Positions 6,515 to 31,048 of a stretch of DNA of 64,000 nt are shown piece after piece. Position numbers and translations under genes: made by a program. Origin of the DNA: Luteibacter sp. (GTDB taxonomy: Bacteria; Pseudomonadota; Gammaproteobacteria; Xanthomonadales; Rhodanobacteraceae). The notes beneath the pieces were generated by a model. It was given only the letters and a program-made list of their open reading frames with translations, was not told the DNA's origin and did no database searches. Position 1 is the first letter of the stretch; each line of letters starts with the position of its first letter. The stretch covers positions 62,001 through 126,000 of the forward strand of contig NZ_WNDO01000003.1 in the NCBI RefSeq assembly GCF_009912395.1, read 5' to 3'.

Positions 6515-6602
6515 GGGATCCCCAATCGTGACAACTTGCGGGAATGGATGCGCCCCCGCGCGAAAGGGTTACCCATGACTATCGGCCTATGCCTGCGCAC
6601 GG

Positions 6603-7455
6603 CCTCCTACGCAAAAGCCGATGCGACGCCTTCGCGGTGCTGGTAAACCGAGGCGCTGGGTTCCTGTTTGCACAGGAACGACGAGGCTGGGAGATCGTCG
6701 TTCCAGCGAACGCTGGAACCCAGCGCGAGGCAATCGGTTGTCGCCTCGCGACCTCCTACGTAAAGCCGATGCAGCGCCCTTGCAGTGCTGGCAAACCGGG
6801 GCGCTGGGTTCCTGTTTGCACAGGAACGACGAGCTCGCGATCCGTCGTTCCAGCGCACGCTGGAACCCAGCACGAGGCAATCGGTTGTCGTCTCGCGACC
6901 TCCTACGTAAAGCCGATGCAGCGCCCTTGCCGTGCTGGCAAACCGGGGCGCTGGGTTCCTGTTTGCACAGGAACGACGAGCTCGCGATCCGTCGTTCCAG
7001 CGAACGCTGGAACCCAGCGCGAGGCAATCGGTTGTCGCCTTGCGGCCTCCTACGTAAAGCCGATGCAGCGCCCTTGCCGTGCTGGCAAACCGAGGCGCTG
7101 GGTTCCTGTTTTCACAGGAACGACGAGCTCGCGATCCGTCGTTCCAGCGCACGCTGGAACCCAGCGCGGGGCGACCGGTTGTCGCCTCGCGGCCTCCTAC
7201 GTAAAGCCGATGCAGCGCCCCCGCCATGCTGGCAAACCGGGGCGCTGGGCTCCTGGAACGACGAGCTCGCGATCCGTCGTTCCAGCGCACGCTGGAACCC
7301 AGCGCGGGGCGGTCGGTTGTCGCCTCGCGGCCTCCTACGCCAAAGCCGATGTGGCGCCCTCGCGGTGCTGGCGAACCGGGGCGCTGGGTTCCTGTTTGCA
7401 CAGGAACGACAAGGCTGGCGATCCGTCGTTCGAGCCAACGCTGGAACGACGGCTG
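6603..7455. repeat. tandem array, six copies of a ~147-bp hairpin-rich unit
   Basis: Units begin with CCTCCTACG at about 6603, 6752, 6899, 7046, 7193 and 7331. The spacings are 149, 147, 147, 147 and 138 bp, and the last copy is cut short. Each unit holds two hairpins. One is GGTTCCTGTTTGCACAGGAA (hairpin arms TTCCTGT/ACAGGAA). The other has CGTTCCAGC and GCTGGAACCC as arms around a short AC-containing loop. Together the two form a larger inverted structure (CGCTGGGTTCC ... GGAACCCAGCG). The copies are 85-95% alike by eye. The fifth unit has lost the first hairpin, which shortens it by 9 bp. There is no coding gene here: the open frames across it exist because 147 is a multiple of three. Confidence 0.9.
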
Positions 7456-17157: not shown

Positions 17158-17427
17158 ATGAGCGCGATCCCAGCTGAAACCTTCACCTTCGACGACGTCC
17201 TCGGTCGCCTGCGATCGGTCCTGCACGAGACCTTCGAGATCGACCCGGCGCGCGTCACCCCCGAGGCCAACCTGTTCACCGACCTCGAACTGGACAGCAT
17301 CGACGCGATCGACCTCGCCATCCAGGTCCAGGACATGACCGGCACCCGGATCAAGCCGGAAGACTTCAAGAGCGTGCGCACGGTCGGCGACGTGGTCGCC
17401 ACGGTGCAGAACCTGCTCACCCGCTGA
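17158..17427 (+). CDS. acyl carrier protein, first gene of the aryl-polyene operon
   Basis: 89 aa. The phosphopantetheine-binding motif is LELDSIDAIDL with Ser47. The helical ACP fold is otherwise normal (VLHETFEIDPARVTPEANLF before, VRTVGDVVATVQNLL after). It would carry the growing polyene chain. ATG at 17158 is used; an in-frame ATG at 17137 would add MKWTYRA and cannot be excluded, as neither has a strong ribosome site. The next gene starts 8 bp downstream. It resembles the ApeE/ApeF pair of carrier proteins in aryl-polyene clusters. Confidence 0.9.
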   Translation: MSAIPAETFTFDDVLGRLRSVLHETFEIDPARVTPEANLFTDLELDSIDAIDLAIQVQDMTGTRIKPEDFKSVRTVGDVVATVQNLLTR

Positions 17428-17435
17428 GCGGTCCG

Positions 17436-18230
17436 ATGGCGGGCAGGCCCGGATCGCGGGACGCCGCGCAGGCCTTCGCGCCTTGCGCCGTCGTTCCCAT
17501 CTACAACCACGGAAGCAGCATCGCCGCGACGGCGAACGCGCTCGCCGCCCACGGACTCCCGGTCATCATCGTGGACGACGGATCGAGTGCGGATACCCGC
17601 GCGATCCTCGACAGCCTCGTCGCCAGTCGTCACGACCTCCGCCTGATCCGCCTGCCCGTGAACGGCGGCAAGGGCAAGGCGCTTACGGCGGGCTTCCTCG
17701 CCGCCCATGAGGCCGGCTATAGCCATGTGTTGCAGATCGACGCCGACGGCCAGCACGACACCGCCGACGTGCCCCGCTTCATCGATGAAGCTCGCGCCCA
17801 TCCCGACGCGATGATCTGCGGCCGTCCCATCTACGACGACTCGGTTCCGCGGGCCCGGTTGTATGGCCGTTACGTCACCCACGTTTGCGTCTGGGCCGAA
17901 ACCCTGTCGTTCGACATCCAGGACTCGATGTGCGGCTACCGGGTGTATCCACTCGCGCCGACCCGCGCCGAGATCGCCCGCAAGCCACTCCCGGCGCGCA
18001 TGGACTTCGACACCGAGATCGCCGTGCGCCTGTACTGGCGCGGCGTCCCCGCACGCAACGTACCTACCCGCGTGATCTATCCCGAGGGCGGGCTGTCGCA
18101 TTTCCGCATGTGGCGCGACAACGTCCGCATCAGCGCGATGCACACGCGACTCCTGCTGGGTATGTTGCCGCGCCTGCCCCGCCTCGTCCTCCGAAAATTC
18201 CGCCGTACGGAAACCCGATGCGCCGTCTGA
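17436..18230 (+). CDS. glycosyltransferase family 2 protein of the aryl-polyene cluster
   Basis: 264 aa. The GT-A fold motifs are VVPIYNHGSSI (19-29), VIIVDDGSS (44-51) and the metal-binding LQIDADGQHD (99-108). These match dolichyl-phosphate-mannose-synthase-like GT2 enzymes common in aryl-polyene clusters. It may glycosylate the polyene or its lipid anchor. No long membrane segment is seen, apart from a basic C-terminus that could touch the membrane. It overlaps the LolA-like gene by 13 bp. Confidence 0.9.
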   Translation: MAGRPGSRDAAQAFAPCAVVPIYNHGSSIAATANALAAHGLPVIIVDDGSSADTRAILDSLVASRHDLRLIRLPVNGGKGKALTAGFLAAHEAGYSHVLQIDADGQHDTADVPRFIDEARAHPDAMICGRPIYDDSVPRARLYGRYVTHVCVWAETLSFDIQDSMCGYRVYPLAPTRAEIARKPLPARMDFDTEIAVRLYWRGVPARNVPTRVIYPEGGLSHFRMWRDNVRISAMHTRLLLGMLPRLPRLVLRKFRRTETRCAV

Positions 18231-18826
18231 TCGCCCTCGTCGCCCTGCTGGTCGCCTTCACCGCACAGGCGCAGTCAACCACACAGGTCAACGACATCCT
18301 CGCCCATCTGTCGACCCACACACAGGTGCGGGCGGATTTCACCCAGACCCGCGAGAACCCCGCGCTGGCCGCGCCGCAAGTCAGCCATGGCGACCTGCTC
18401 TTCGTGATCGGTCACGGCATGCTCTGGCACACCCGCGATCCGTTCGACGACACGCTCGTACTCACCTCGGGGCGCACCGCGCGCCTGACGGCGGAGGGTC
18501 GCGTGGAACGCGTGCCGGATGCGAACCGGGGCATAACCCAGGTTTCCGCCATGTTGCAGGGACTGCTCGCAGGCCACGCGGACGAGGCCCTGCGCCAGTT
18601 CGACGTGGCGGCCGACGGTACGCTCACGCAGTGGACGCTTCGCTTCACCCCGCGCCAGGCACGCATGGCGCGCGTCCTCGCCGGCATCACCCTGCGTGGC
18701 GGTGAATTTCTCGACGCGATCGAGGTGGACCTCGCCAATGGCGAGCGCACGCGCATCGTGTTCGCGAACACCCGGGACGCCGCTCCGCTGAATCCCCTCG
18801 AAGCGAAGGCCCTCGGCGTCCCATGA
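18218..18826 (+). CDS. LolA-like outer-membrane lipoprotein carrier of the aryl-polyene cluster
   Basis: 202 aa. The signal peptide is MRRLIALVALLVAFTAQA, cleaved before QSTTQ. VRADFTQTRENPAL is the typical first strand of LolA-like proteins, followed by the half-barrel with GDLLFVIGHGMLWHTRDPFD. Dedicated LolA homologues occur in aryl-polyene loci and are thought to carry the lipid-linked pigment across the periplasm; here it directly precedes the MMPL exporter (4-bp overlap). Confidence 0.88.
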   Translation: MRRLIALVALLVAFTAQAQSTTQVNDILAHLSTHTQVRADFTQTRENPALAAPQVSHGDLLFVIGHGMLWHTRDPFDDTLVLTSGRTARLTAEGRVERVPDANRGITQVSAMLQGLLAGHADEALRQFDVAADGTLTQWTLRFTPRQARMARVLAGITLRGGEFLDAIEVDLANGERTRIVFANTRDAAPLNPLEAKALGVP

Positions 18827-21177
18827 GGCGGTTGACGACCTCGGCCCGCGCCGGGCTCTTCACGCTCGCGGCGCTGCTGGTCTGCCTGCTGGGTACCTGG
18901 CTGCTGTTCGGCCGTGACACCCCCGCCCTGCGCACCGACCTGCTGGCGATGTTGCCGGCCACCGAGCGCAATCCGCTGGCCGAAGAAGCCGTCGAGCGCC
19001 TGACCCGGGCGAGCGGCGACCGGATGATCCTGCTGGTGGCGGACCGCGACGACGAGATCGCCAAGACCGCCGCTCACGAGCTGGGCACCGCGCTCGGCAA
19101 GGATCCGGCCTTCGCCTCCGTCATCGCGGAGCTGCCGCCGTTCGATCCCGCCCAGCTCGTCGCGCCGCTGCTCCCGCATCGATTCCACCTGCTGACGCCG
19201 ACCGATCGCGCCGCGCTCGCCGCGCCAGGTTTCGACGCGTCCGCCGTGCTGCGCCGCCAGCTCAACGAGCCGTTCGGCGTCAACGTCGGTCCGTCGCTCG
19301 CCGACGATCCGTTCGGCTGGCTTCGTCACTGGTTCGACCGGCAACCCTGGAGCCAGGGCACCCTCATACCGGAAGACGACCTGCTCACGGCGCATCGCGA
19401 CGACGGCAGCTATGTGATGGTGATCGCCACCCTCGCCGGCTCCTCCTACGATGATGGCGTGCAACGTCGCGCCCTTGCCGCGCTGGGTCGCGCGGAAGAT
19501 GCCATGCACGCGGCACATCCAAACGCGCGCCTGTTGCGGACCGGTGCCGTATTCTACGCCGCTGCCGCACGCGCGGGAGCCGAGCGCGACACGCACGTGG
19601 TGGGCATCGCTTCCACCGTGGGCATCGCCCTGCTGCTGCTCTTCGCCTTCCGTTCGCCACGACCGCTGTTCATCGCGTTCCTGTCCACGGCGCTCGGTGT
19701 CGTGGGCGCGGTCGTCACCACGATCCTCGTCTTTGGGCAATTGCACCTGCTCACCCTGGTGTTTGGTGCTGCGCTGCTGGGAGAGGCCGTCGACTATTCC
19801 ATCCAGTACCTCTGCGCGCGCGCCAACGCAGGGAACCACTGGCAGCCGGAAGATGGCGTACGCCAGGTCAGGCCGGCCCTGATGCTCGCGCTGGCGACCT
19901 CGCTGCTCGGTTATGCCCTGCTCGCGTTGCTGCCCTTCCCCGCGCTGCGCCAGATGGCCGTGTTCGCCATCGCCAGCATGTGCGTCGCGTGTGCGAGCGT
20001 CTTCTGGTTGCTTCCTGCGCTGGCACGCGCCCCGGCGCGCGCACCGATCTCCGCGCCGCTCGTGCATGCCGCGCGGGCCTGGCAACGCCTCGCCAGCGGC
20101 CGACGCGCCGTCGTTGTCGTCGGCCTGCTCGTCATCGCCGCGGTGCCCGGATGGCTGCGCCTGGGCCACGACGACGACATCCATCTGCTGATCTCTCCGC
20201 CACCCTCGCTCGACGCGCAGACGGCGATCATTCGCGACATCGCAGGCATGGGCGGCGGCAGCCAGTTTTGGCTGGTGGAAGGCGCGGATGCCGAAGAGAC
20301 CCTGCGCCACGAGGAAGCCCTCACCGACCGTCTCGACCGCGAACACATCGGCTGGACGGGCATGACGGCGATGCTACCGTCCCAGAAGCGCCAGGCCGAC
20401 AACCTCGCCCTCCTCTGCGCCAGCCAGGGTTCCACGGGATCGCCTCCTGCGACCGGAGACTGCGGAGAACGGATGCGCTCGGCGATGCTGGCCGCCGGGT
20501 TCAAGCCCGAAGCCGCGGATGCCTACGCCCACGCCTTTCCCGGCACGCCACTCACCCTTGCCGACTGGCAGGCCATGCCGGCCTACACGCCGTTCCGCTA
20601 CCTGTGGCTCGAACGCGCCAGCATCGTGGTACCGCGCGGACAGGACGACGTCGCGACGTTGAAGGCGATGGCCGACGGCCTGCCTGGCGTGTCCCTCATC
20701 GACAAGCCGGCCAGCATTTCCGCCCTGTTCGGCCAGTACCGCGGGCAGGCCGTGCTCTGGCTCGGCGGCGCACTCGTGCTCGTCGGCATGGCGCTCGCCT
20801 GGCGCTATGGCATCCGCTCGGCGTGGCGCGTACTGCTGCCGCCGGCGGCAGGCATCGCGCTCAGCATGGGCACGCTCGGCTATCTCGGCGAACCGCTCAC
20901 GCTGTTCCACGTGATGGCGCTCATGCTCGTGCTCGGCGTCGGCGCCAACTACGCCGTGTTCCTGCGCGAAGGCGAGCCGCATGCCGCGCATCGACCCGGC
21001 GCGGCCTATGCGGGCGTGCTGCTCTCCGCCGTCACCGCCCTGCTTTCCTTCGGACTGCTCGCCCTGAGCACGATGCCCGCGCTGCGGCACTTCGGAATCA
21101 CCCTGCTCTTCGGCATCGGCTTCACCGCGCTGCTCGCGCCGGTAAGCGCGCCTGACACCAAGACATCACACGCATGA
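18823..21177 (+). CDS. MMPL/RND-type exporter of the aryl-polyene cluster
   Basis: 784 aa with the two-fold repeat of MMPL proteins: helix 1 (~9-32), a large periplasmic loop, a block of helices ~260-410 (GIASTVGIALLLLFAF; LTLVFGAALLGEAVDYSIQY), a second loop, and a final block ~640-780 (LVLVGMALAWRYGIR; HVMALMLVLGVGANYAVFL). The GEAVDYSIQY and GVGANYAVF motifs carry the polar residues used for proton coupling. It likely moves the finished lipid-polyene out of the inner membrane. Overlaps with both neighbours (4 bp each) show translational coupling. Confidence 0.9.
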   Translation: MRRLTTSARAGLFTLAALLVCLLGTWLLFGRDTPALRTDLLAMLPATERNPLAEEAVERLTRASGDRMILLVADRDDEIAKTAAHELGTALGKDPAFASVIAELPPFDPAQLVAPLLPHRFHLLTPTDRAALAAPGFDASAVLRRQLNEPFGVNVGPSLADDPFGWLRHWFDRQPWSQGTLIPEDDLLTAHRDDGSYVMVIATLAGSSYDDGVQRRALAALGRAEDAMHAAHPNARLLRTGAVFYAAAARAGAERDTHVVGIASTVGIALLLLFAFRSPRPLFIAFLSTALGVVGAVVTTILVFGQLHLLTLVFGAALLGEAVDYSIQYLCARANAGNHWQPEDGVRQVRPALMLALATSLLGYALLALLPFPALRQMAVFAIASMCVACASVFWLLPALARAPARAPISAPLVHAARAWQRLASGRRAVVVVGLLVIAAVPGWLRLGHDDDIHLLISPPPSLDAQTAIIRDIAGMGGGSQFWLVEGADAEETLRHEEALTDRLDREHIGWTGMTAMLPSQKRQADNLALLCASQGSTGSPPATGDCGERMRSAMLAAGFKPEAADAYAHAFPGTPLTLADWQAMPAYTPFRYLWLERASIVVPRGQDDVATLKAMADGLPGVSLIDKPASISALFGQYRGQAVLWLGGALVLVGMALAWRYGIRSAWRVLLPPAAGIALSMGTLGYLGEPLTLFHVMALMLVLGVGANYAVFLREGEPHAAHRPGAAYAGVLLSAVTALLSFGLLALSTMPALRHFGITLLFGIGFTALLAPVSAPDTKTSHA

Positions 21178-22427
21178 CCCAGACCTCATCTTCCCGCCCT
21201 CTCCGTCGCGTCGTCGTCACTGGCTTTGGTGGCATCACGCCGCTCGGCCACGACTGGCCCACGATCGAAGCCCGTTTGCGCGAACGTCGCAACGCCATCC
21301 GCCGAATGGGCGAATGGGATTACTTCGACGCGCTCAACGGCCGCCTCGGCAGCCCGGTGGACGATTTCACCGTGCCGTCGCACTGGTCGCGCAAGCACAT
21401 GCGTTCGATGGGTCGCGTCGCCCAGCTGGCCGTCGCCGCAAGCGAGCGCGCCCTCGCCGATGCCGGCCTGCTCGGCGACCCGTCGATCACGGACGGCCGC
21501 ATGGGTGTGGCCTACGGCTCCTCCGGCGGCAGCATCGAGCCGGCACGCACGGTCGGCCACATGCTGGAAACCGGATCGATGCAGGGTGTCACGGCGACCA
21601 GCTACATCCAGATGATGGCGCACACCACCGCCGTGAACGTCGGCGTGTTCTTCGGCCTGAAGGGCCGCGTCATCACCACGTCGAGCGCGTGCACCTCGGG
21701 CAGCCAGGCCATCGGCTACGGCTATGAAGCGATCCAGCAGGGCAAGCAGACGCTGATGCTCTGCGGGGGTGCCGAGGAACTATCCGGTCCCGGCGCGGCC
21801 GTCTTCGACACCCTGTTCGCCACCAGCACGCAAAACGATACCCCCGGAGTGACGCCTCGTCCCTTCGATGCGAAGCGCGACGGCCTCGTGGTCGGTGAAG
21901 GCGCGACCACGCTCGTGATTGAAGAGTACGAACACGCCGTGGCGCGCGGTGCGACCATCCATGCGGAGATCGTCGGCTTCGGCACCAACTCCGATGGCGC
22001 GCACATTACCCAGCCCACCCGCGAGACCATGGCGGCCGCGATGCGCCTGGCCTTGCTCGATGCCGGCCTCGACGCCTCGGCCATCGGTTACGTCAGCGCA
22101 CACGGTACCTCCACCGATCGTGGCGACGTGGCGGAAAGCCACGCCACCGCCGACGTGCTTGGCGCCAACGTGCCGATCAGCTCGATGAAGAGCTACGTTG
22201 GCCATACCCTCGGCGCCTGTGGCGCGTTGGAGTCCTGGTGGGCGATCCGGATGATGCACGAAGGATGGTTCGCACCCACGATCAACCTTGATACGCCAGA
22301 CCCGGAATGCGCTGCGCTCGACTACATCACGGGCGAAGGCCGCGCCATCCACACCGACTACGTGATGAACAACAACTTCGCGTTCGGTGGCATCAACACG
22401 TCGCTGATCTTCAGGGCCTGGCGTTGA
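21174..22427 (+). CDS. beta-ketoacyl-ACP synthase, FabF-like (ApeR-like)
   Basis: 417 aa. A complete Cys-His-His triad is present: Cys173 in TTSSACTSGSQ, His310 in VSAHGTSTDRGD, His344 in SYVGHTLGACG, with Lys339. It catalyses condensation of acyl chains with malonyl-ACP in polyene elongation. The full active site and lone-standing length suggest a homodimeric FabF-type enzyme like ApeR. It overlaps the next ketosynthase by a single base (TGATG). Confidence 0.92.
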   Translation: MTQTSSSRPLRRVVVTGFGGITPLGHDWPTIEARLRERRNAIRRMGEWDYFDALNGRLGSPVDDFTVPSHWSRKHMRSMGRVAQLAVAASERALADAGLLGDPSITDGRMGVAYGSSGGSIEPARTVGHMLETGSMQGVTATSYIQMMAHTTAVNVGVFFGLKGRVITTSSACTSGSQAIGYGYEAIQQGKQTLMLCGGAEELSGPGAAVFDTLFATSTQNDTPGVTPRPFDAKRDGLVVGEGATTLVIEEYEHAVARGATIHAEIVGFGTNSDGAHITQPTRETMAAAMRLALLDAGLDASAIGYVSAHGTSTDRGDVAESHATADVLGANVPISSMKSYVGHTLGACGALESWWAIRMMHEGWFAPTINLDTPDPECAALDYITGEGRAIHTDYVMNNNFAFGGINTSLIFRAWR

Positions 22428-23647
22428 TGCGTCGCGTCGTCGTCACCGGCATGGGGGCGGTGTCCTGCCTGGGGCCGGATCGCCATGCCTTGTTCGATGG
22501 CCTGCGCGCGGGGCGCACGGGCTTTTGCGACATGCCGGACTTCGCGGCGCTGGGCATGCGCAACCGTGTCGCCGCGCCGGCCGACACGGGCACGCTGGAG
22601 CCGCCACCGCGCAAGCTGCGCCGCTATTTCCCGCAGGCCGCCGAGTACGCCTGGCATGCCACCCGCGAGGCCCTGGCCGAGGCCGGTATCGACGAAGCCC
22701 GCGTGCGCGAACGCGACGTCGGCATCGTCATGGGCGGCATGGCGGCGCTTTCCGAATACGAGGCGGGGCTGGATGTCTTCCACGCCAAGGGCTATGCGCG
22801 GCTGTCGCCTTTCATCGTGCCGCGCAGCATGGGCAGTGCCGTCAGCGCGACGCTCGTGCACGCCTTCGGCTTCGGAGGGCGCGGTTTCACCGTCGGCTCC
22901 GCATGCACCAGCGCCACGCACGCGGTCGGCCAGGCGATGGAGTTGATCCAATTGGGTCGCCAGGAGATCGTAGTCTGCGGTGGCGCTGAAGAGCTGCACG
23001 ACAAGGCAGCCATGTGCTTCGACGTGATGAACGCGCTGTCGACGGACAGTGTCGCCGACGACCATGTGTCCACACCCTATGCCAGGAGCCGCGACGGCAT
23101 CGTGCTGGCCGGCGGTGCAGGCGTGCTGGTACTGGAATCGCTCGAACACGCGCTCGCCCGCGGTGCGACCATCCTCGCCGAGATGGCGGGCTATGGCGCG
23201 GCGTCCGATCCCGACGGCATGGTCAGCCCGAACGCCGATGGCATGGCCGAAGCGATGCACCAGGCCATCGACCTCGCCGGCACGATTCCCGACTACGTGA
23301 ACACCCATGCCTGCGCCACCGTGGCCGGCGACCTGGCCGAGTGGCAGGCACTGCGTCGTGTGTTCGAGGAGCGCGGCCACCCCGTCCCCTGGATGTCGTC
23401 GATCAAGGGCCAGACGGGCCATGCGCCCGCCGCGGCCGGTGCGCTGGACCTGATTACGTCCATCGCGATGATGGAGCACGGTGTCCTGCTCGGCGGCACC
23501 CTGCCGCGGGATCTGGACGAGGCCTTCGCCGACGCGCCCCTGCTCGACGGCGAACGCGAAGCCCACGTGGACGCCGTGCTGTCCAACACCTTCGGCTTCG
23601 GCGGCAGTTGCGCCGCCCTTGTCGTCCGTCGATACCACGAGGCCTGA
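22427..23647 (+). CDS. second beta-ketoacyl-ACP synthase
   Basis: 406 aa. The triad is Cys160 (VGSACTSATHA), His294 (NTHACATVAGD) and His332 (GQTGHAPAAAG), with Lys327. The first His motif reads THA instead of the usual THG or AHG, which may affect packing. It begins on the stop codon of the first ketosynthase, so the two may be made in equal amounts and could form a pair; that is inference. The open frame extends upstream, but only the ATG at 22427 gives a FabF-like N-terminus (RRVVVTGMGAVSCLG). Confidence 0.9.
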   Translation: MRRVVVTGMGAVSCLGPDRHALFDGLRAGRTGFCDMPDFAALGMRNRVAAPADTGTLEPPPRKLRRYFPQAAEYAWHATREALAEAGIDEARVRERDVGIVMGGMAALSEYEAGLDVFHAKGYARLSPFIVPRSMGSAVSATLVHAFGFGGRGFTVGSACTSATHAVGQAMELIQLGRQEIVVCGGAEELHDKAAMCFDVMNALSTDSVADDHVSTPYARSRDGIVLAGGAGVLVLESLEHALARGATILAEMAGYGAASDPDGMVSPNADGMAEAMHQAIDLAGTIPDYVNTHACATVAGDLAEWQALRRVFEERGHPVPWMSSIKGQTGHAPAAAGALDLITSIAMMEHGVLLGGTLPRDLDEAFADAPLLDGEREAHVDAVLSNTFGFGGSCAALVVRRYHEA

Positions 23648-23650
23648 GCC

Positions 23651-24385
23651 ATGATCGAGCTTCGCATCGAACGATGGCGTGCATGGGCACCGGACATCCA
23701 GGACGACGCGGGCTGGGCGGCGTGGGCTGCGTCGCCCATGCCGCTGCATGAGAACGACAGCCAGCCCGCTTGCGAGCTCGTGCCGCCGATGCAACGTCGC
23801 CGCCTGAGCCGCTTGGCGCGCATCGTCATGCACACCGCGTGGCCGCTTTGCGACGATGGTGAACAACTGCCCTTCGTCTTCGCTTCCCGGCATGGCGAGA
23901 CGACCCGCACCTACGCCATGCTCGACGAGATCGGTCGTGACGCACCGCTGTCGCCGACCCAGTTCGGCCTGTCGGTGCACAATGCCATCGCCGGCCAGTG
24001 GTCGATCCTGCGCGGCCAACGCGGCGAATCCGTCGCCCTCGCCGGCGAGGCGGATACCTTCGAGCATGCGATCGTCGAAGCCGCCACCCTGATCGGCGAA
24101 GGCGCGAAAGCGGTGATCGTCGTGGTCGCCGAGGAACGGCCTGCGCCGGCCTATGACGGCTGGATCGACGATGTGCCTTGCTCATACGCCGTCGCTCTTC
24201 GCGTCGCAAGGGCCGATGCGCCCGGCGCGGGCACGCGCTGGCGGCTATCGCTTCGTGGTAATACCGACTGCGCGGCGGCGACCGGCGAGCCACACGCCCT
24301 GCGCTTCGTTCGCGCCCTGCACGATGGCGCGCCCCTCGACCACCCGTGGAAGACACGACGATGGACCTGGCAGCCGATACCGTGA
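23651..24385 (+). CDS. chain-length-factor-like beta-ketoacyl synthase domain protein (ApeC-like)
   Basis: 244 aa, about half the size of a ketosynthase. It matches the short ketosynthase-like N-domain family found in aryl-polyene clusters (PPMQRRRLSRLARIVMHTAW; PLSPTQFGLSVHNAIAGQWS). No active-site Cys is seen at the expected place, where the motif reads SVHNAIAG. Such proteins pair with a catalytic ketosynthase (ApeO) to form a KS-CLF heterodimer that sets chain length. It follows the second ketosynthase by 3 bp and overlaps the acyltransferase gene. Confidence 0.85.
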   Translation: MIELRIERWRAWAPDIQDDAGWAAWAASPMPLHENDSQPACELVPPMQRRRLSRLARIVMHTAWPLCDDGEQLPFVFASRHGETTRTYAMLDEIGRDAPLSPTQFGLSVHNAIAGQWSILRGQRGESVALAGEADTFEHAIVEAATLIGEGAKAVIVVVAEERPAPAYDGWIDDVPCSYAVALRVARADAPGAGTRWRLSLRGNTDCAAATGEPHALRFVRALHDGAPLDHPWKTRRWTWQPIP

Positions 24386-25149
24386 GACGCCGTCGCGACG
24401 CATGGGCCTGGCGCTTCGTCAGCACCGCGCTGTCGTTCGCCCTGTTTGGCATCGGTGGCATCCTGCTGCGCGTCGCCATCCTACCCGTCGTGCTGCACTG
24501 GCCGGGTCCGCGGGAGGTTCGCCGTCGCCGTGCAAGGCGCACCGTGGGTCGGGCGTTCTGGCTGCATGCGCAGTTCATGTCGCGCACCGGCACGGTGAGC
24601 TATAGCTTCGAAGGCCTCGAACGCCTCGGCAGACCCGGCCAGATGATCGTGGCCAACCATCCGTCGCTGATCGACGTGGTGTTCCTCCTCGGCCACGTGC
24701 CCGATGCCAATTGCGTGGTCAAGCACAGCCTGTGGAAGAATCCGTGCATGCGCGGCCCCGTTACCGTGGCGCAGTACATCAGCAACGACGGCAGCGCCGA
24801 TATGCTCGATCGCGCGGCCGACGTGCTGCGCGAAGGACAGACGCTCATCGTCTTCCCCGAAGGCACGCGTACCACGCCGGGCCAGGCGCCCGTCTTCCAT
24901 CGCGGCGCTTCCGCCATCGCGGTGCGTGGCGCCTCGGTGGTCACGCCCGTGTTCATCCGCGTGGTGCCAACCACGCTCACCAAGGCCGAGCCGTGGTATC
25001 GCATCCCCGACCGGCGCGTGCACATGCACCTGCGTGTCGGCGACGATATCGACGTCGCGACCTTCAGCCGCGACACCCCCGCGCCGATAGCCTCGCGCCG
25101 GCTCAACGAACATCTCCACCATCTTTACGCCAGGGAATTGCAGGGATGA
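24361..25149 (+). CDS. 1-acyl-glycerol-3-phosphate acyltransferase-like (PlsC family)
   Basis: 262 aa. HPSLID (100-105) is the HX4D catalytic motif and FPEGTRTTPG is the substrate-binding motif of PlsC acyltransferases. A hydrophobic segment at ~20-45 should anchor it to the inner membrane. It is probably involved in moving the polyene acyl chain onto a lipid acceptor. ATG at 24361 (GGAAG nine bases before) is preferred over GTG at 24346. It overlaps the CLF gene and the second ACP gene. Confidence 0.9.
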   Translation: MDLAADTVRRRRDAWAWRFVSTALSFALFGIGGILLRVAILPVVLHWPGPREVRRRRARRTVGRAFWLHAQFMSRTGTVSYSFEGLERLGRPGQMIVANHPSLIDVVFLLGHVPDANCVVKHSLWKNPCMRGPVTVAQYISNDGSADMLDRAADVLREGQTLIVFPEGTRTTPGQAPVFHRGASAIAVRGASVVTPVFIRVVPTTLTKAEPWYRIPDRRVHMHLRVGDDIDVATFSRDTPAPIASRRLNEHLHHLYARELQG

Positions 25150-25409
25150 ACACCCTCGAACGGGATATCGCCCAACTCATCATCGACACGCTCGCACTCG
25201 AACATCTCACGGTGGCCGACATTGATCCCGCGCAGCCACTGTTCGGCCAGGGCCTGGGGCTCGACTCCGTCGACGCCCTGGAACTCGCGCTGGCCTTGCA
25301 GAACACCTACGGCCTGCGCATCGCCTCGGATTCGCGCGACGCCCGCAGTCATTTCGAAACCGTCGCCAGCCTGGCCCTCTATGTCGAGGCCAGCCGCACC
25401 CATGCGTAA
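25146..25409 (+). CDS. second acyl carrier protein of the aryl-polyene cluster
   Basis: 87 aa. LGLDSVDALEL contains the phosphopantetheine Ser41. ALEHLTVADIDPAQPLFGQG is a standard ACP loop. The two ACPs of the cluster differ clearly from each other, as ApeE and ApeF do in the studied Escherichia cluster. It overlaps both neighbours (4 bp upstream, 8 bp downstream). Confidence 0.92.
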   Translation: MNTLERDIAQLIIDTLALEHLTVADIDPAQPLFGQGLGLDSVDALELALALQNTYGLRIASDSRDARSHFETVASLALYVEASRTHA

Positions 25410-26577
25410 GCTCAGCGACATCGCCCTGCTTCTCGTGGGCGTGCTGTATCCCTTCGTCGTGTACTTCGGCACGGACCACGTTTCGCCGCCGATCTTCGGG
25501 CTGATCCTCGGCGGTCTCTGGCTGGTTCGTGCGCCGGCGCTGCTGCGCCGCCCCGGCGGTGGCTGGATGCTGGCCGTCACGCTGGCTTACTGCGCCGTGC
25601 TGGCGTTCGGTGGCAGCGAGCAGATGCTGCGCTGGTATCCCAGCCTCATCTGCGCGCTGCTGTTCGCGGCCTTCGGCCTCAGCCTGAAGTACGGGCCGCC
25701 GATGATCGAGCGCATCGCCCGGGTGACCGAACCCGACCTGCCGCCCGTCGCCGTGGCCTATACACGCAAGGTCACCTGGGTCTGGGTGGTTTTCTTTGCC
25801 GTCAACGGCATCTGCTCCGCCCTGCTCGCCGGCTGGGGCCCGTTGTCGTGGTGGACCTTCTACAACGGCATTCTCGCCTACTCGGTCATGGGCACGCTTT
25901 TCATCGGTGAATGGTTGTTCCGCCAGCGGCTGCGTCGACGGATCAACAAGGTGCCCATGGAGGCTGCCGCGGGCCGACTGGCGTCCCATCCCTGGGTGGA
26001 CGGCGCGCTGGGCGGTTACGCCGGCAAGCGGGGGCCGGGCATGGTGGTGATGCCGTCGGCATCCGGTCGCCTGGCGCTGCTGCGCCATGGTCGTGCGGGA
26101 CTGGTCACCGAACTGGGCCAGCATGCGGCCGGCGACGATGCCCTCGCCACGCCGTTGGTCTGGCGCTTCGTCGAAGCATTGCCCGAGCGGACGGACGTGG
26201 ACGCCCTGCTGCGCGCGCCGTTGCCCACGGAAGCCATCCTGCTCGACGAGCGACGCGACGACGACGCCGTCGTGCTGCGCCTCGCGCTACCGCTGGACCT
26301 GGCGTGCTTCGCCGACCATTTCCCCGAGGCACCCGTGCTGCCCGGCGTGCTCCAGATCGGCTGGGCACTGGCCCTGGCCGCGCCACGTCTCGGTACGCAG
26401 GCCACCTGTCGGAACATCGACCAGCTCAAGTTCCAGCGCCTGCTGCGCCCCGGCGACGAGGTGGAACTGACACTGCGCGTCGACACCGTGCAGAACCGCC
26501 TGCATTTCGCCTACCGCGTGCAGGACACCCTTTGTTCGTCAGCATGGCTGCGCATGGACGCGCCCATCCATGTCTGA
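25402..26577 (+). CDS. fusion: ApeG-like membrane domain + acyl-CoA-synthetase remnant + ApeI-like dehydratase
   Basis: 391 aa in three parts. Residues 1-~180 carry membrane segments and match the COG4648 family (ApeG): LLLVGVLYPFVVYFG, WVWVVFFAVNGICSALLAG. Residues ~183-275 (AAGRLASHPWVDGALGG; VWRFVEALPERTDVDALL) look like the C-terminal subdomain of the ApeH-type AMP-dependent ligase, but the usual catalytic Gly-Lys tail is replaced by ERTDV and the whole N-terminal adenylation core is absent. Residues ~280-391 are a hotdog dehydratase (FADHFPEAPVLPGVLQIGWA, His306). The reading frame is intact. An internal deletion that fused ApeG to an ApeH-ApeI protein would explain it; this comes from family memory, not from an alignment. 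Confidence 0.82.
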   Translation: MRKLSDIALLLVGVLYPFVVYFGTDHVSPPIFGLILGGLWLVRAPALLRRPGGGWMLAVTLAYCAVLAFGGSEQMLRWYPSLICALLFAAFGLSLKYGPPMIERIARVTEPDLPPVAVAYTRKVTWVWVVFFAVNGICSALLAGWGPLSWWTFYNGILAYSVMGTLFIGEWLFRQRLRRRINKVPMEAAAGRLASHPWVDGALGGYAGKRGPGMVVMPSASGRLALLRHGRAGLVTELGQHAAGDDALATPLVWRFVEALPERTDVDALLRAPLPTEAILLDERRDDDAVVLRLALPLDLACFADHFPEAPVLPGVLQIGWALALAAPRLGTQATCRNIDQLKFQRLLRPGDEVELTLRVDTVQNRLHFAYRVQDTLCSSAWLRMDAPIHV

Positions 26578-27523
26578 GCCGGTCGTGGACGAGCCGCACT
26601 GGGCAAGCCGGCGGGAACGCGGCAGCCTCCTGGGCATGCGCTTCACCGCATGGGCCGTGCGCCTGCTCGGCCGACGCGGCGCGGCGCCGCTGGTTCACCT
26701 TGTGGTGCTGTACTTCTACTTCACGGCCCGGCGCGAGCGACGGAACATCGCGAGCTATCAGCAGCGACTCGTCGAATGGAGTGGCCGTATCGACCTGTTT
26801 CCGCCCCGCGCCGTCTTCGCCCAATACCACGCCTTTGGCGACTGCATGCTCGACCGCCTGGATGTGTGGCGCGGGCGCCTTCGCCTGGCCTCCGTGATGC
26901 TGGACGACCCCGATGGCGTGCGTACGGCGCTGCTCAGCGGCCGCCGCGGTCAGATCCTGGTCTGCACCCACCTGGGCAACCTCGATGTCTGCCGCGCCAT
27001 GGCGGAGTTGGGCGAAGGCGTCTCGTTGAACGTATTGATGCACCTGCCCCGCGCCGCGCATTTCAACCGCATGCTCGAAGCGTCCGGCGATCGCCGCCTG
27101 CGCCTCATGCACGTGGGCGACCTCGACACGTCAACGATGCTCGACCTCTCCCAGCGCCTGGAGCGTGGTGAATGGATCGCGATCGCCGGCGACCGCGTGG
27201 CAGTGCATGGCGGGCGCAGCGTCGTCGTGCCCTTCCTCGGCGAGCCGGCCTCGTTCCCGCAGGGCCCCTGGCTGATGGCCGCGATGCTCCGCGCGAAGAC
27301 CAACCTCGTCTGCTGCCTCAAGCGCGAGGGCCGCTACCGCATCCACCTGCGCGCATTCGACGACGCGGCATCCTGGCAGCGCGCCCGTCGCGACGACGCC
27401 ATCGCGGACGCCGCCAGTCGCTACGCGACATGGCTGGGCGAGCGTTGCCTCGACGCACCGTTGCAATGGTTCAATTTCCACCCTTACTGGCAACCGACGC
27501 CCGGAGTCAGCCATGCACGCTAA
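26570..27523 (+). CDS. LpxL/HtrB-like acyltransferase of the aryl-polyene cluster
   Basis: 317 aa. HLGNLD (134-139) is the HX4D motif of lysophospholipid/lipid A acyltransferases; GEWIAIAGDRVAVHGGRS and VPFLGEPASFPQGPW are conserved in the predicted-acyltransferase family found in these loci. A hydrophobic stretch at ~38-52 suggests membrane association. It likely loads the polyene or a fatty acid onto the lipid anchor, beside the PlsC-like enzyme. It overlaps the fusion gene by 8 bp and the thioesterase by 11 bp. Confidence 0.88.
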   Translation: MSEPVVDEPHWASRRERGSLLGMRFTAWAVRLLGRRGAAPLVHLVVLYFYFTARRERRNIASYQQRLVEWSGRIDLFPPRAVFAQYHAFGDCMLDRLDVWRGRLRLASVMLDDPDGVRTALLSGRRGQILVCTHLGNLDVCRAMAELGEGVSLNVLMHLPRAAHFNRMLEASGDRRLRLMHVGDLDTSTMLDLSQRLERGEWIAIAGDRVAVHGGRSVVVPFLGEPASFPQGPWLMAAMLRAKTNLVCCLKREGRYRIHLRAFDDAASWQRARRDDAIADAASRYATWLGERCLDAPLQWFNFHPYWQPTPGVSHAR

Positions 27524-27965
27524 AGGTGTGCTCGCCACCGAGATCGATCTCGTCGTGCCGTTCTTCGACGTCGATTCGATGGAGATCGTCTGGCACGGCC
27601 ATTACGTGAAGTACCTGGAGATGGCGCGTTGCGCCTTGCTGGACGACCTCGGCCACAACTATGTGCGCATGAAGGAAACCGGCTACGTCTGGCCCATCAT
27701 CGACCTCCAGTTGCGCTACGCCCGCTCCGCGCGCTTCGGCCAGGCCTTGCGCGTGCGCGCCGAACTGGTCGAGTGGGAAAATCGCCTCAAGATCCACTAC
27801 ACGCTCAGCGACGTCGAAAGCGGCGAGCGCCTCACCCGCGCCAGCACCATCCAGGTCGCCGTACGCCTTTCCGACGGCGAGATGCAGCTTGTCTCGCCCC
27901 CCGTCTTCGTCCAGGACGTCGAGCGTCGCCTCGGCGCCTCCCGATCCCCCCGCGGAAACCCATGA
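27513..27965 (+). CDS. 4-hydroxybenzoyl-CoA-thioesterase-like hotdog thioesterase (ApeK-like)
   Basis: 150 aa. FFDVDSMEIVWHGHYVKYLE is the signature helix-turn of the 4HBT thioesterase family, with the catalytic Asp near residues 19-21. It may release polyene chains from ACP or edit stalled intermediates. The start overlaps the acyltransferase by 11 bp and the stop overlaps the methyltransferase ATG, so it is fully embedded in the operon. Confidence 0.9.
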   Translation: MHAKGVLATEIDLVVPFFDVDSMEIVWHGHYVKYLEMARCALLDDLGHNYVRMKETGYVWPIIDLQLRYARSARFGQALRVRAELVEWENRLKIHYTLSDVESGERLTRASTIQVAVRLSDGEMQLVSPPVFVQDVERRLGASRSPRGNP

Positions 27966-28684
27966 AGTTCGCCAGCCCCACCTACGTCGAAGAAACCCGG
28001 ATCGGTTTCGTTTTCCTGCGTACGCATACGTGGCAGCACCACGTGCTGCGCGTGGCGATCAACGACCTCAAGCGCCTTGTCGGCACACCCTTGCCGCATG
28101 GTGGCACCCTGCTCGATGTCGGCTGCGGCCAGGGCCGATCCTTCCGCCTGCTCCGTGACGCCTTCGCGCCGGAGCGCATGATTGGACTCGACGCCGATCC
28201 GCACAGCGTCGAGCTGTCGCGCGAGGAAGCCGCGCGCCAGGGCATCGACGCACGCCTGATCCTCGGCGACTGCGCCCGCATCGACCTGCCCGACGCCTCG
28301 GTGGATGTGGTGTTCTGCCACCAGACCTTCCATCACCTGGTCGAGCAGGAAAAGGCGCTCGACGAATTCTGGCGCGTGCTCAAGCCGGGCGGCCTGCTGC
28401 TGTTCGCGGAGTCCACCCGCGCCTATATCGATACCTGGGTGATCCGCTGGTTCTTCCGGCATCCGATGCACGTGCAGAAGAGCGCCGACGAATACCTGGC
28501 GATGCTGCGCGGACGCGGTTTCCGTTTCGAGGACCGCCACGTCTCGCTGCCCTACCTGTGGTGGAGCCGCTCGAAGGATTTCGGCCTCGCGGAACGCTGG
28601 GGCATCAAGGCGCCACCGCCGCCGGGCAAGCGCGACGAGACCCTGGTCAACGTCGCAGCCCGCAAACCCGTGGACGCGGTATGA
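27962..28684 (+). CDS. class I SAM-dependent methyltransferase of the aryl-polyene cluster
   Basis: 240 aa. LLDVGCGQGRSFRLL is SAM motif I, MIGLDADPHSVELS motif II, and DVVFCHQTFHHLVEQEKAL with RVLKPGGLLLFAE completes the fold. Aryl polyenes often carry a methyl group on the aryl head; this enzyme is the candidate. The ATG at 27962 is used because the upstream open frame is only a shadow. Four-base overlaps couple it to both neighbours. Confidence 0.88.
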   Translation: MKFASPTYVEETRIGFVFLRTHTWQHHVLRVAINDLKRLVGTPLPHGGTLLDVGCGQGRSFRLLRDAFAPERMIGLDADPHSVELSREEAARQGIDARLILGDCARIDLPDASVDVVFCHQTFHHLVEQEKALDEFWRVLKPGGLLLFAESTRAYIDTWVIRWFFRHPMHVQKSADEYLAMLRGRGFRFEDRHVSLPYLWWSRSKDFGLAERWGIKAPPPPGKRDETLVNVAARKPVDAV

Positions 28685-29853
28685 CTGCGACCTACCTCAA
28701 CGCGCTGGGCGTCACCTGCTCGCTGGGCCAGGGCAAGGCGGCCGTCGCCGCCGCGCTGTTCGGCACCGACGACCATGGCCTCGCGGCCCTGGATGGCTGG
28801 GTGCCCGGCCACGCGTTGCCACTGGGTAACGTCGATGTCACGCTGCCCGCGGTCGCCCCCGAACGCGACACGCGCAACAACCGCTTGTTGAAGCAGGCCG
28901 TGGAGGAGATCCGCGCGGATGTCGACGCGGCCATCGCACGCTTCGGCGCGGACCGCATCGGCGTCGTGATCGGCACGAGCACCACCGGCATCGAGGAAGC
29001 CACTGGCCATATCGCCGCGCGCGGCCGCGATGGCGTGTGGCCGGAAAGCTATCGCTACGCCGATCAGGAGCTGGGCGCCCCGGCGGAAAGCCTTGCCGAG
29101 TGGCTGGGTTTGGCCGGTCCCTGCTATGGCATTTCCACCGCCTGCACATCGGGCGCACGCGCCCTGCTGAGCGCGCAACGCATGCTTCGGCTCGGCCTGT
29201 GCGATGCCGTGATCTGCGGCGGTGCCGACACGCTCTGCCGCCTGGCGATCCGTGGCTTCCACGCGCTGGAGGCCACGGCGCCGGAACGCTGCCAGCCGTT
29301 CTCCGCCTCGCGTCGCGGCATCAACATCGGCGAGGCCGCCGCCGTGTTCCTCATGACCCGTGAACCCGCCGACGTGACCTTCCTCGGCGGTGGCGCCAGC
29401 TCGGACGCGTACCATATGTCATCGCCCGAACCCGACGGTCGCGGAGCAAGCGAGGCCATGCGCCTCGCCCTCAACGCGACCGGACTCGACGCCTCGATGA
29501 TCGACTACGTGAACCTGCACGGCACCGCCACCGAACAGAATGACGCGATGGAAAGCCGCGCCGTCGCCGCCGTGCTCGGTACCCAGGTACCCTGCTCGTC
29601 CACCAAGGCACTTACCGGCCACACGCTGGGCGCGGCCGGTGCGCTCGAAGCGGCGTTCTGCTGGCTTTCGCTGAGGGACGCCGAGCGTCGCCTGCCGCCC
29701 CATCACTGGGACGGCCAGTTCGACCCCGCGCTACCCGCGCTGCATTTTGTCGCGTCGGGCGACCGACTGGCCCCCGGGCGTCGTCATCTCATGAGCAATT
29801 CGTTCGCGTTCGGTGGCAACAACGCGAGCCTGATCCTGGCGGACGCCGCATGA
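28681..29853 (+). CDS. beta-ketoacyl-ACP synthase (ApeO-like)
   Basis: 390 aa with a complete triad: Cys155 (ISTACTSGARA), His280 (VNLHGTATEQND), His314 (LTGHTLGAAGA), and Lys309. The NLHGTATEQND form and the shorter N-terminus are those of the ApeO family, the catalytic partner of the chain-length factor. The CLF-like gene lies 4.3 kb upstream, so the pair would be split within the operon. It ends by overlapping the dehydratase gene by 4 bp. Confidence 0.92.
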   Translation: MTATYLNALGVTCSLGQGKAAVAAALFGTDDHGLAALDGWVPGHALPLGNVDVTLPAVAPERDTRNNRLLKQAVEEIRADVDAAIARFGADRIGVVIGTSTTGIEEATGHIAARGRDGVWPESYRYADQELGAPAESLAEWLGLAGPCYGISTACTSGARALLSAQRMLRLGLCDAVICGGADTLCRLAIRGFHALEATAPERCQPFSASRRGINIGEAAAVFLMTREPADVTFLGGGASSDAYHMSSPEPDGRGASEAMRLALNATGLDASMIDYVNLHGTATEQNDAMESRAVAAVLGTQVPCSSTKALTGHTLGAAGALEAAFCWLSLRDAERRLPPHHWDGQFDPALPALHFVASGDRLAPGRRHLMSNSFAFGGNNASLILADAA

Positions 29854-30323
29854 GCGCGCGCACCATCGACCAGGTGCTGCCCCATGCCGGCCGGATGATC
29901 TGGCTCGACCGCATCGTCGTGTGGGAAACCGATCGCATCGTCTGCGAGCGCACCGTGCGCGGCGGCGATCCGCAGGTGGACGCCGCCGGTCTGCCGACCT
30001 GGACCGGCGTGGAACTGATGGCCCAGGCCATCGCCGCGTGGAACGGCTGTCGGATGCTCGATGCCGGTGGCGAGGTCCGTCCCGGTTTCTTGCTCGGCAC
30101 GCGTCAGTACCGTGCCGATAGCGACCATTTCCCGCTGGGTGCCGTGCTGCGCGTGGAAGCCCTGCGCACCTTCCACGACGAGGACGGCATGGGCGCCTTC
30201 ACCTGCACCATCGACGCACCGGGCGTTCACGCCGAAGCCCGCCTCACGGTGTTCAGCCCGGCCGACCCGACTCCCTTCCTCGATCCTCGCCAACATCTCG
30301 ACCCCAGGGGAACCCCACCATGA
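29850..30323 (+). CDS. hotdog 3-hydroxyacyl-ACP dehydratase (ApeP-like)
   Basis: 157 aa. VLPHAGRMIWLDRIV (His12) and WTGVELMAQAIAAW (Glu55) are the two catalytic segments of the FabA/FabZ-like ApeP family, followed by PGFLLGTRQYRADSDHFP. It removes water from the 3-hydroxyacyl chain to form each double bond. With the dehydratase domain of the fusion protein it forms the likely ApeI/ApeP pair. Confidence 0.9.
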   Translation: MSARTIDQVLPHAGRMIWLDRIVVWETDRIVCERTVRGGDPQVDAAGLPTWTGVELMAQAIAAWNGCRMLDAGGEVRPGFLLGTRQYRADSDHFPLGAVLRVEALRTFHDEDGMGAFTCTIDAPGVHAEARLTVFSPADPTPFLDPRQHLDPRGTPP

Positions 30324-31048
30324 CCCATACCGTTCTCGTCACCGGCTCCAGCCGGGGTATCGGCCGCACCATCGCGCTGAACCTCGCTGACGCCGGCTAC
30401 GACATCGTGGTCCATTGCCGCTCGCGTCGCGACGAAGCCGAGGCGGTGCGTGACGATATTCTCGCCAAGGGCAGGCAGGCCCGCGTGCTGTCGTTCGACG
30501 TGGCCGATCGCGCCGCCACCGCCGCGGCACTCGAAGCGGACGTCACTGCGCATGGCGCCTACTACGGCGTGGTGTGCAACGCCGGCCTCACCCGCGACGG
30601 CGCCTTTCCCGCGCTGAGCGAGGAGGACTGGGACACCGTGCTGCGCACCAACCTCGACGGCTTCTACAACGTGCTGCATCCGCTGGTCATGCCGATGATC
30701 CGTCGTCGCGCCGCAGGTCGCATCGTCTGCATCACCTCGGTGTCCGGCATCATCGGCAACCGTGGGCAGGTGAACTACAGCGCGTCCAAGGCCGGCGTGA
30801 TCGGCGCGGCGAAAGCCCTCGCCGTGGAACTGGCGAAGCGCAAGATCACCGTGAACTGCGTGGCCCCGGGCCTCATCGACACCGACATGCTCGACCCCGA
30901 CGTGCCGGTGGAACAGATCCTCAAGGTCATCCCGATGGAACGCAGCGGCACGCCCGAGGAAGTCGCCGCCGCCGTGCGCTTTCTGGTGAGTCCGGAAGCT
31001 GGCTACATCACCCGCCAGGTGCTCGCCGTCAACGGCGGCCTGTGCTGA
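30320..31048 (+). CDS. 3-oxoacyl-ACP reductase, FabG-like (ApeQ-like)
   Basis: 242 aa short-chain dehydrogenase. The cofactor motif is TGSSRGIG (8-15), NAG is at 87-89, and the catalytic residues are Ser140, Tyr153 and Lys157 (YSASK). VNCVAPGLIDTDM is conserved in FabG. It reduces the 3-keto group at each elongation step. It is the last gene of the aryl-polyene operon; a compact REP palindrome follows within 10 bp and probably ends or stabilises the transcript. Confidence 0.94.
   Translation: MTHTVLVTGSSRGIGRTIALNLADAGYDIVVHCRSRRDEAEAVRDDILAKGRQARVLSFDVADRAATAAALEADVTAHGAYYGVVCNAGLTRDGAFPALSEEDWDTVLRTNLDGFYNVLHPLVMPMIRRRAAGRIVCITSVSGIIGNRGQVNYSASKAGVIGAAKALAVELAKRKITVNCVAPGLIDTDMLDPDVPVEQILKVIPMERSGTPEEVAAAVRFLVSPEAGYITRQVLAVNGGLC

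Follow-up and report, generated by a model that had tools for sequence, protein, structure and literature searches.

The window, a stretch of 64,000 nucleotides from a Luteibacter sp. genome, contains an aryl-polyene (APE) gene cluster, hereafter referred to as cluster A. Analysis of Pfam matches and open reading frames revealed the following features:

17161–31048, + strand: cluster A as a whole, with no ligase gene
from 17161, + strand: first part of cluster A (ACP at 17161–17427, GT2, LolA, MMPL exporter, two KS)
23651–24385, + strand: KS-like gene, followed in gene order by an acyltransferase
25140–25409, + strand: second ACP
25402–26577, + strand: fused ORF
26570–27523, + strand: acyltransferase
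27513–27965, + strand: thioesterase
27962–28684, + strand: methyltransferase
28681–29853, + strand: KS
29850–30323, + strand: ApeP
30320–31048, + strand: ketoreductase

The fused ORF is a single intact frame that runs from an ATG at 25402 to a stop codon at 26575–26577 and encodes 391 amino acids. An earlier note based on the DNA letters had described it as one frame joining an ApeG-like domain to an ApeI-like dehydratase, and this description was upheld. The protein is composed as follows:

25402–25944, + strand: ApeG-type membrane domain, residues 1–181 (sequence similarity, AF2, hydropathy)
25951–26235, + strand: remnant of the ApeH C-terminal (ANL) subdomain, residues 184–278 (alignment, AF2, fold matches)
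25957–25959, + strand: ATG of Met186, near the start of the separate remnant-apeI gene of relatives (20/20 fusions)
26185–26193, + strand: site at which the A10 catalytic Lys motif (NAQGK in Pseudomonas ApeH) is absent (alignment)
26236–26574, + strand: ApeI dehydratase (hot-dog) domain, residues 279–391 (PF22818, HFP His)

The ApeG part (residues 1–180) is 50–54% identical to the ApeG that precedes a long ApeH-ApeI frame in three Pseudomonadaceae loci. Identity is 68–86% within the genus, 61–69% in loci L040–L064 and 44–45% in G026 and G028 of the same family. ApeG proteins are classed as COG4648; for this part Pfam returned no ApeG family, only IspA at E 0.39. In the AF2 model of the whole protein (mean pLDDT 90) the ApeG part forms long helices at residues 2–26, 29–48, 53–70, 79–97, 115–145 and 148–182. 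Five of them give clear hydropathy peaks; the sixth has no peak above 1.25 and is seen with AF2 only. A run of six Lys/Arg residues directly follows the last helix, suggesting a cytoplasmic C end. The fusion protein is thus predicted to tether ApeI to the membrane, as the earlier note proposed.

Residues 285–374 match the ApeI-like family PF22818 with 46.5 bits (curated cut-off 28.5). This part retains the HFP histidine (FADHFP), which we take to be the histidine of FabZ. The position that we take to be that of the FabZ glutamate is Gly in the window protein; among the 20 fusions it is Gly in 11, Ala in seven and Glu in two. The replacement of Glu in most fusions fits a composite active site formed with ApeP. 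According to PMC8041823, ApeI and ApeP form a heterodimer that has one active site. By analogy, the ApeI of the fusion is expected to pair with the ApeP encoded at 29850–30323 to form a one-site dehydratase.

The piece between the two domains was compared with ApeH ligases. In tblastn searches, residues 184–278 were 36% and 39% identical to the ApeH C-termini of two Pseudomonadaceae loci (L066 and L067, respectively), while the third such locus, L065, gave no match at E 0.01. An hhalign comparison of 20 remnants with a six-row ApeH profile gave a probability of 98.3% (E 1.1e-14). The free-standing ligase encoded elsewhere in the genome (see below) was rejected as a source of the remnant, its hhalign probability being 2.6%. 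AF2 folded the remnant alone with a mean pLDDT of 91, the input alignment including three ApeH rows, and within the whole-protein model its blocks have pLDDT of 86–97. A Foldseek search of the PDB yielded 638 matches at E up to 10; the best 50 of them are all adenylate-forming (ANL) enzymes, with a best E of 8.2e-4 and only one value below 0.001. On its own, the remnant has no Pfam match, and AMP-binding_C was matched by three of 25 rows. A profile search of PDB sequences gave only three TEL2 matches (E 0.03–0.1), taken as chance. The A10 catalytic Lys motif is missing from all 22 aligned remnants and present in all three ApeH rows, and none of the 33 matches to PF00501 (AMP-binding) in the genome lies on contig C23 (255,548 bases), which carries the window. 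As judged from these comparisons, the middle piece is confirmed to be about 95 residues of the ApeH C-terminal subdomain without the catalytic Lys motif, the adenylation core being gone, as the earlier note had proposed.

A search of 61 genomes found the fusion at full length in the genome of the window and in 19 of the other 22 Luteibacter genomes. The remaining three comprise G007 (80% complete) and G016, in which no match was found, and G017, in which only ApeG was matched. In G017 (L126), cluster A is down to ApeG and a ketoreductase beside a Leu-dehydrogenase-like gene (identified by eye), the rest being missing.

A survey of 47 loci revealed several arrangements. apeG is fused to remnant-apeI in eight loci, is accompanied by a separate remnant-apeI frame in 13, by apeI without a remnant in 11, by one long frame ending in ApeI in five, and by a separate apeI about 1.2–1.4 kb further on in eight. 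One locus (L. anthropi L051) has apeG only and one lies at a contig end. Rhodanobacter, Fulvimonas and some Dyella keep remnant-apeI as its own gene behind apeG, and three Pseudomonadaceae loci have a single apeH-apeI frame in that place. In L189, from another family of the order, ApeI comes directly after ApeG and a ligase of the free-standing type lies elsewhere in the cluster. L125 (G032) keeps the remnant-ApeI piece, and no apeG match was found in that locus. In L215 (G134 C1:3725506–3726231) the match to ApeH-ApeI begins at residue 318, leaving a remnant longer than elsewhere; this locus is possibly an intermediate of the apeH deletion.

The order of events was read from a tree of 35 rows (the window and 34 of the 47 loci; L040, L051 and L068–L078 were left out), which does not include G026 and G139, has its root drawn at the midpoint and is subject to a long-branch warning. 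The fused group forms one side of a single branch (100/99), and 32 core-less rows are split from three complete rows (100/99). Four changes are needed to explain the remnant-less state, and well-supported branches force three of these, when regain is assumed impossible and remnant-less groups are counted as losses. We conclude that there were two events: loss of the apeH core, common to Luteibacter, Dyella, Rhodanobacter and Fulvimonas, and later a fusion to apeG, which took place once, in Luteibacter. Several unfused lineages lost the remnant. Thus, of the single frame-keeping deletion suggested by the earlier note, the loss of the core stands, while the joining to apeG was a separate, later step. 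Living relatives provide the whole series: a full ligase-dehydratase fusion, a separate remnant, a lost remnant and a remnant fused to a membrane protein.

Junction sequences are in line with this order. In L066 and L065 an ATGA is shared by the apeG stop and the apeH start. At the apeG stop of eight remnant loci the sequence reads ATGA in three (L053, L056 and L061) and GTGA in five, start codons here being read from the sequence, with an ATG a few bases later in some of these. This pattern fits a deletion inside apeH that spared its start, followed by a frame change that joined apeG to the remainder.

Formation of hydroxybenzoyl-ACP is assigned to ApeH in passages of PMC8253772 and PMC8041823. 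A search of the genome for a free-standing ApeH-like ligase revealed a complete 518-aa frame, P0003, at C53:31688–33241 between sua5 and purD. It is the closest ApeH match outside the window (E 4e-18; the next match, at E 3.5e-7, is part of an open frame of 2256 aa). The earlier proposal that the cluster bypasses its own ligase holds for the absence of a ligase from cluster A; aryl priming itself need not have been bypassed, a complete ligase being present in the same genome. The A3 and A10 motifs and an adjoining sua5 are present in all 30 ligase loci examined (49 matches), and purD in 29. In 12 genomes of other families a P0003 relative occurs together with a XanB2-type chorismatase (PF21168), and in seven of them (G037, G043, G045, G046, G048, G050 and G053) the two are no more than 5 kb apart. 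P0003 relatives lie among cluster genes in L186–L189 (identified with Pfam in L188 and by eye in the others) and outside any cluster in L191, L192 and L195. By these locations and motifs P0003 is a ligase of the xanthomonadin/APE type, predicted to load hydroxybenzoate onto an APE ACP.

Part of PMC3949708 describes Xcc4015 as essential for pigment and its homologue ArcT as adenylating 3-hydroxybenzoate. The C53 ligase resembles these AMP-ligases of xanthomonadin and arcuflavin clusters by location, through its relatives near XanB2 in 7 of 12 genomes; unlike them, it has sua5 and purD as neighbours and is separated from XanB2 by about 22 kb. That XanB2 gene belongs to a second, xanthomonadin-type cluster (cluster B; L200, L220) at C53:55700–66300 of the same genome (G000), about 22 kb from P0003. 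Cluster B contains the XanB2 chorismatase and a halogenase-like gene (Pfam) as well as MMPL, ApeP-like and KS genes (by eye). The idea that P0003 belongs to the window cluster alone was dropped once cluster B turned up. An excerpt of PMC9965599 records xanthomonadin as predicted from the L. flocculans genome and its colonies as yellow.

Among 117 genomes of the family, cluster A was found in 41 (including G032, added by hand with a match of 1.9e-20, just short of the cut-off) and the free-standing ligase in 112. Cluster B was scored as absent where no MMPL match to P0004 at E 1e-40 was better than about 33% identity. On this definition the ligase is kept in 13/13 genomes with both clusters, in 73/74 with cluster B only, and in 25/26 with only an ApeH-less cluster A; it is absent from both genomes that have only a cluster A with complete ApeH (G026 and G139). 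Where neither cluster is found, G062 has the ligase and G068 does not. Fisher p values for this distribution (0.0037 and 0.0079) were not taken as probabilities because both complete-ApeH genomes share a genus. For the same reason, and because the ApeG of G026 is only 44% like that of the window, the complementarity of ligase and ApeH is close to a single event. G057, from another family, has complete ApeH and no free-standing ligase, like G026 and G139, and provides a second case. The exception among ApeH-less genomes, G065 (L216), has neither a P0003 relative nor a B-type MMPL; its priming needs another enzyme, or its cluster is dead.

From the sequence data it is likely that one trans-acting, free-standing ligase primes cluster A and serves both clusters. 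Taken together, we consider the following account fairly probable. In the ancestral APE cluster a fused apeH-apeI gene would have come after apeG. A deletion inside apeH, in the common ancestor of the Luteibacter, Dyella, Rhodanobacter and Fulvimonas cluster, would have removed the adenylation core and left the C-terminal subdomain of the ligase, without its catalytic Lys, ahead of ApeI. A single later event, in Luteibacter, would have changed the frame close to the apeG stop and so joined ApeG to remnant-ApeI. The product would be a membrane-anchored ApeI that pairs with ApeP into a one-site dehydratase, with the remnant, folded and under selection, serving as a spacer or scaffold and no longer as a ligase. 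Aryl priming would be provided in trans by the ApeH-like ligase at the sua5-purD locus, which would also serve the xanthomonadin-type cluster. The genes of an APE cluster are therefore not enough to call it unprimed, since its ligase can be encoded elsewhere, and one ligase may feed two polyene pathways. A more far-reaching version is offered only tentatively: the dead ligase subdomain may have been re-used as a docking or scaffold module, perhaps ACP-recognising, that keeps the dehydratase next to the exporter at the membrane, with two different polyene clusters primed by one ligase encoded elsewhere in the genome.

Alternatively, P0003 may serve the xanthomonadin-type cluster only, cluster A using another starter or an unrelated ligase to make a different polyene. 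The presence of P0003 in nearly all cluster-B-only genomes shows that its occurrence is not tied to cluster A, it is missing from G065 although that genome keeps an ApeH-less cluster A, and the 33 AMP-binding matches of the window's genome offer other candidates. However, P0003 is retained in 25 of 26 genomes in which an ApeH-less cluster A occurs without a B-type MMPL, and no other protein outside the window matches ApeH as closely. We therefore regard this alternative as rather unlikely, and priming of cluster A by P0003 is the reading we prefer.

Tethering of the dehydratase could also be partial, if internal translation from the ATG at 25957 yielded soluble remnant-ApeI in addition to the fusion protein. 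Met186, encoded by this ATG, is invariant in 20/20 fusions, relatives begin a gene near it, and AAGG lies five bases upstream in 13/20. In the other seven AAGG is absent, and where present it follows from Lys-Ala/Val codons. On this sequence evidence, internal initiation appears unlikely.

To compare constraint on the three parts, dN/dS (omega) was calculated by the Nei-Gojobori method, with pairs that are not independent and synonymous sites that are partly saturated (pS 0.40–0.62). Values for ApeG, remnant and ApeI were 0.191, 0.203 and 0.246 in the 20 fusions, 0.081, 0.275 and 0.106 in eight Dyella-type unfused loci, and 0.260, 0.524 and 0.271 in five Rhodanobacter/Fulvimonas unfused loci. 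The 95% intervals of the remnant/ApeI ratio, obtained by resampling of codon columns, were 0.56–1.21, 1.67–4.14 and 1.23–3.16, respectively, so that fusions and Rhodanobacter/Fulvimonas are barely apart (1.21 vs 1.23). Within Luteibacter the interval was 0.47–1.09 for a clade of 14 and 0.51–1.66 for a clade of five, the latter overlapping Rhodanobacter. The remnant/ApeG ratio of the fusions (0.73–1.5) overlaps that of Rhodanobacter (1.31–3.09). Thus, unfused remnants evolve loosely, while the fused remnant shows roughly the constraint of its neighbouring domains; the difference is clear for the Dyella type and marginal for Rhodanobacter. The fusion frame is open in 20/20, though in five (L016–L020) the codon that aligns with the ATG of the window ORF is no start codon. 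On fusion between two other domains, a vestigial piece of an enzyme thus seems to pass from loose to tight constraint. That the remnant is functionless debris would agree with its loss from several unfused lineages and with its rapid change, relative to its neighbours, where unfused. The omega of the fused remnant, similar to that of ApeG and below that of ApeI, the open frames and the confidently modelled fold nevertheless make this very improbable. An assembly error or chimeric contig can be dismissed for practical purposes because the full-length fusion recurs in 19 of 22 further Luteibacter genomes and the fusion is also carried by eight named Luteibacter records (partly the same genomes).

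Fusion of ApeH to ApeI and the ApeI:ApeP pair are already known. In Acinetobacter baumannii CRAB C1, as far as a portion of PMC8041823 describes it, the ligase likewise lies directly before ApeI in one protein and ApeI pairs with ApeP. That fusion has the adenylation core; the Luteibacter protein lacks it and has ApeG joined in its place. The Xenorhabdus doucetiae ApeI:ApeP dehydratase (PDB 6qsr) has the same ApeI fold and, in its database entry, is recorded as ApeI:P and not as a membrane fusion, unlike the Luteibacter protein. A search of the open-access literature turned up no publication that deals with an ApeG-ApeI fusion or with ApeH-less clusters of Rhodanobacteraceae.

Outside cluster A, positions 6600–7447 of the window carry a tandem array of 5.8 copies of a 147-base unit that is open in several frames.
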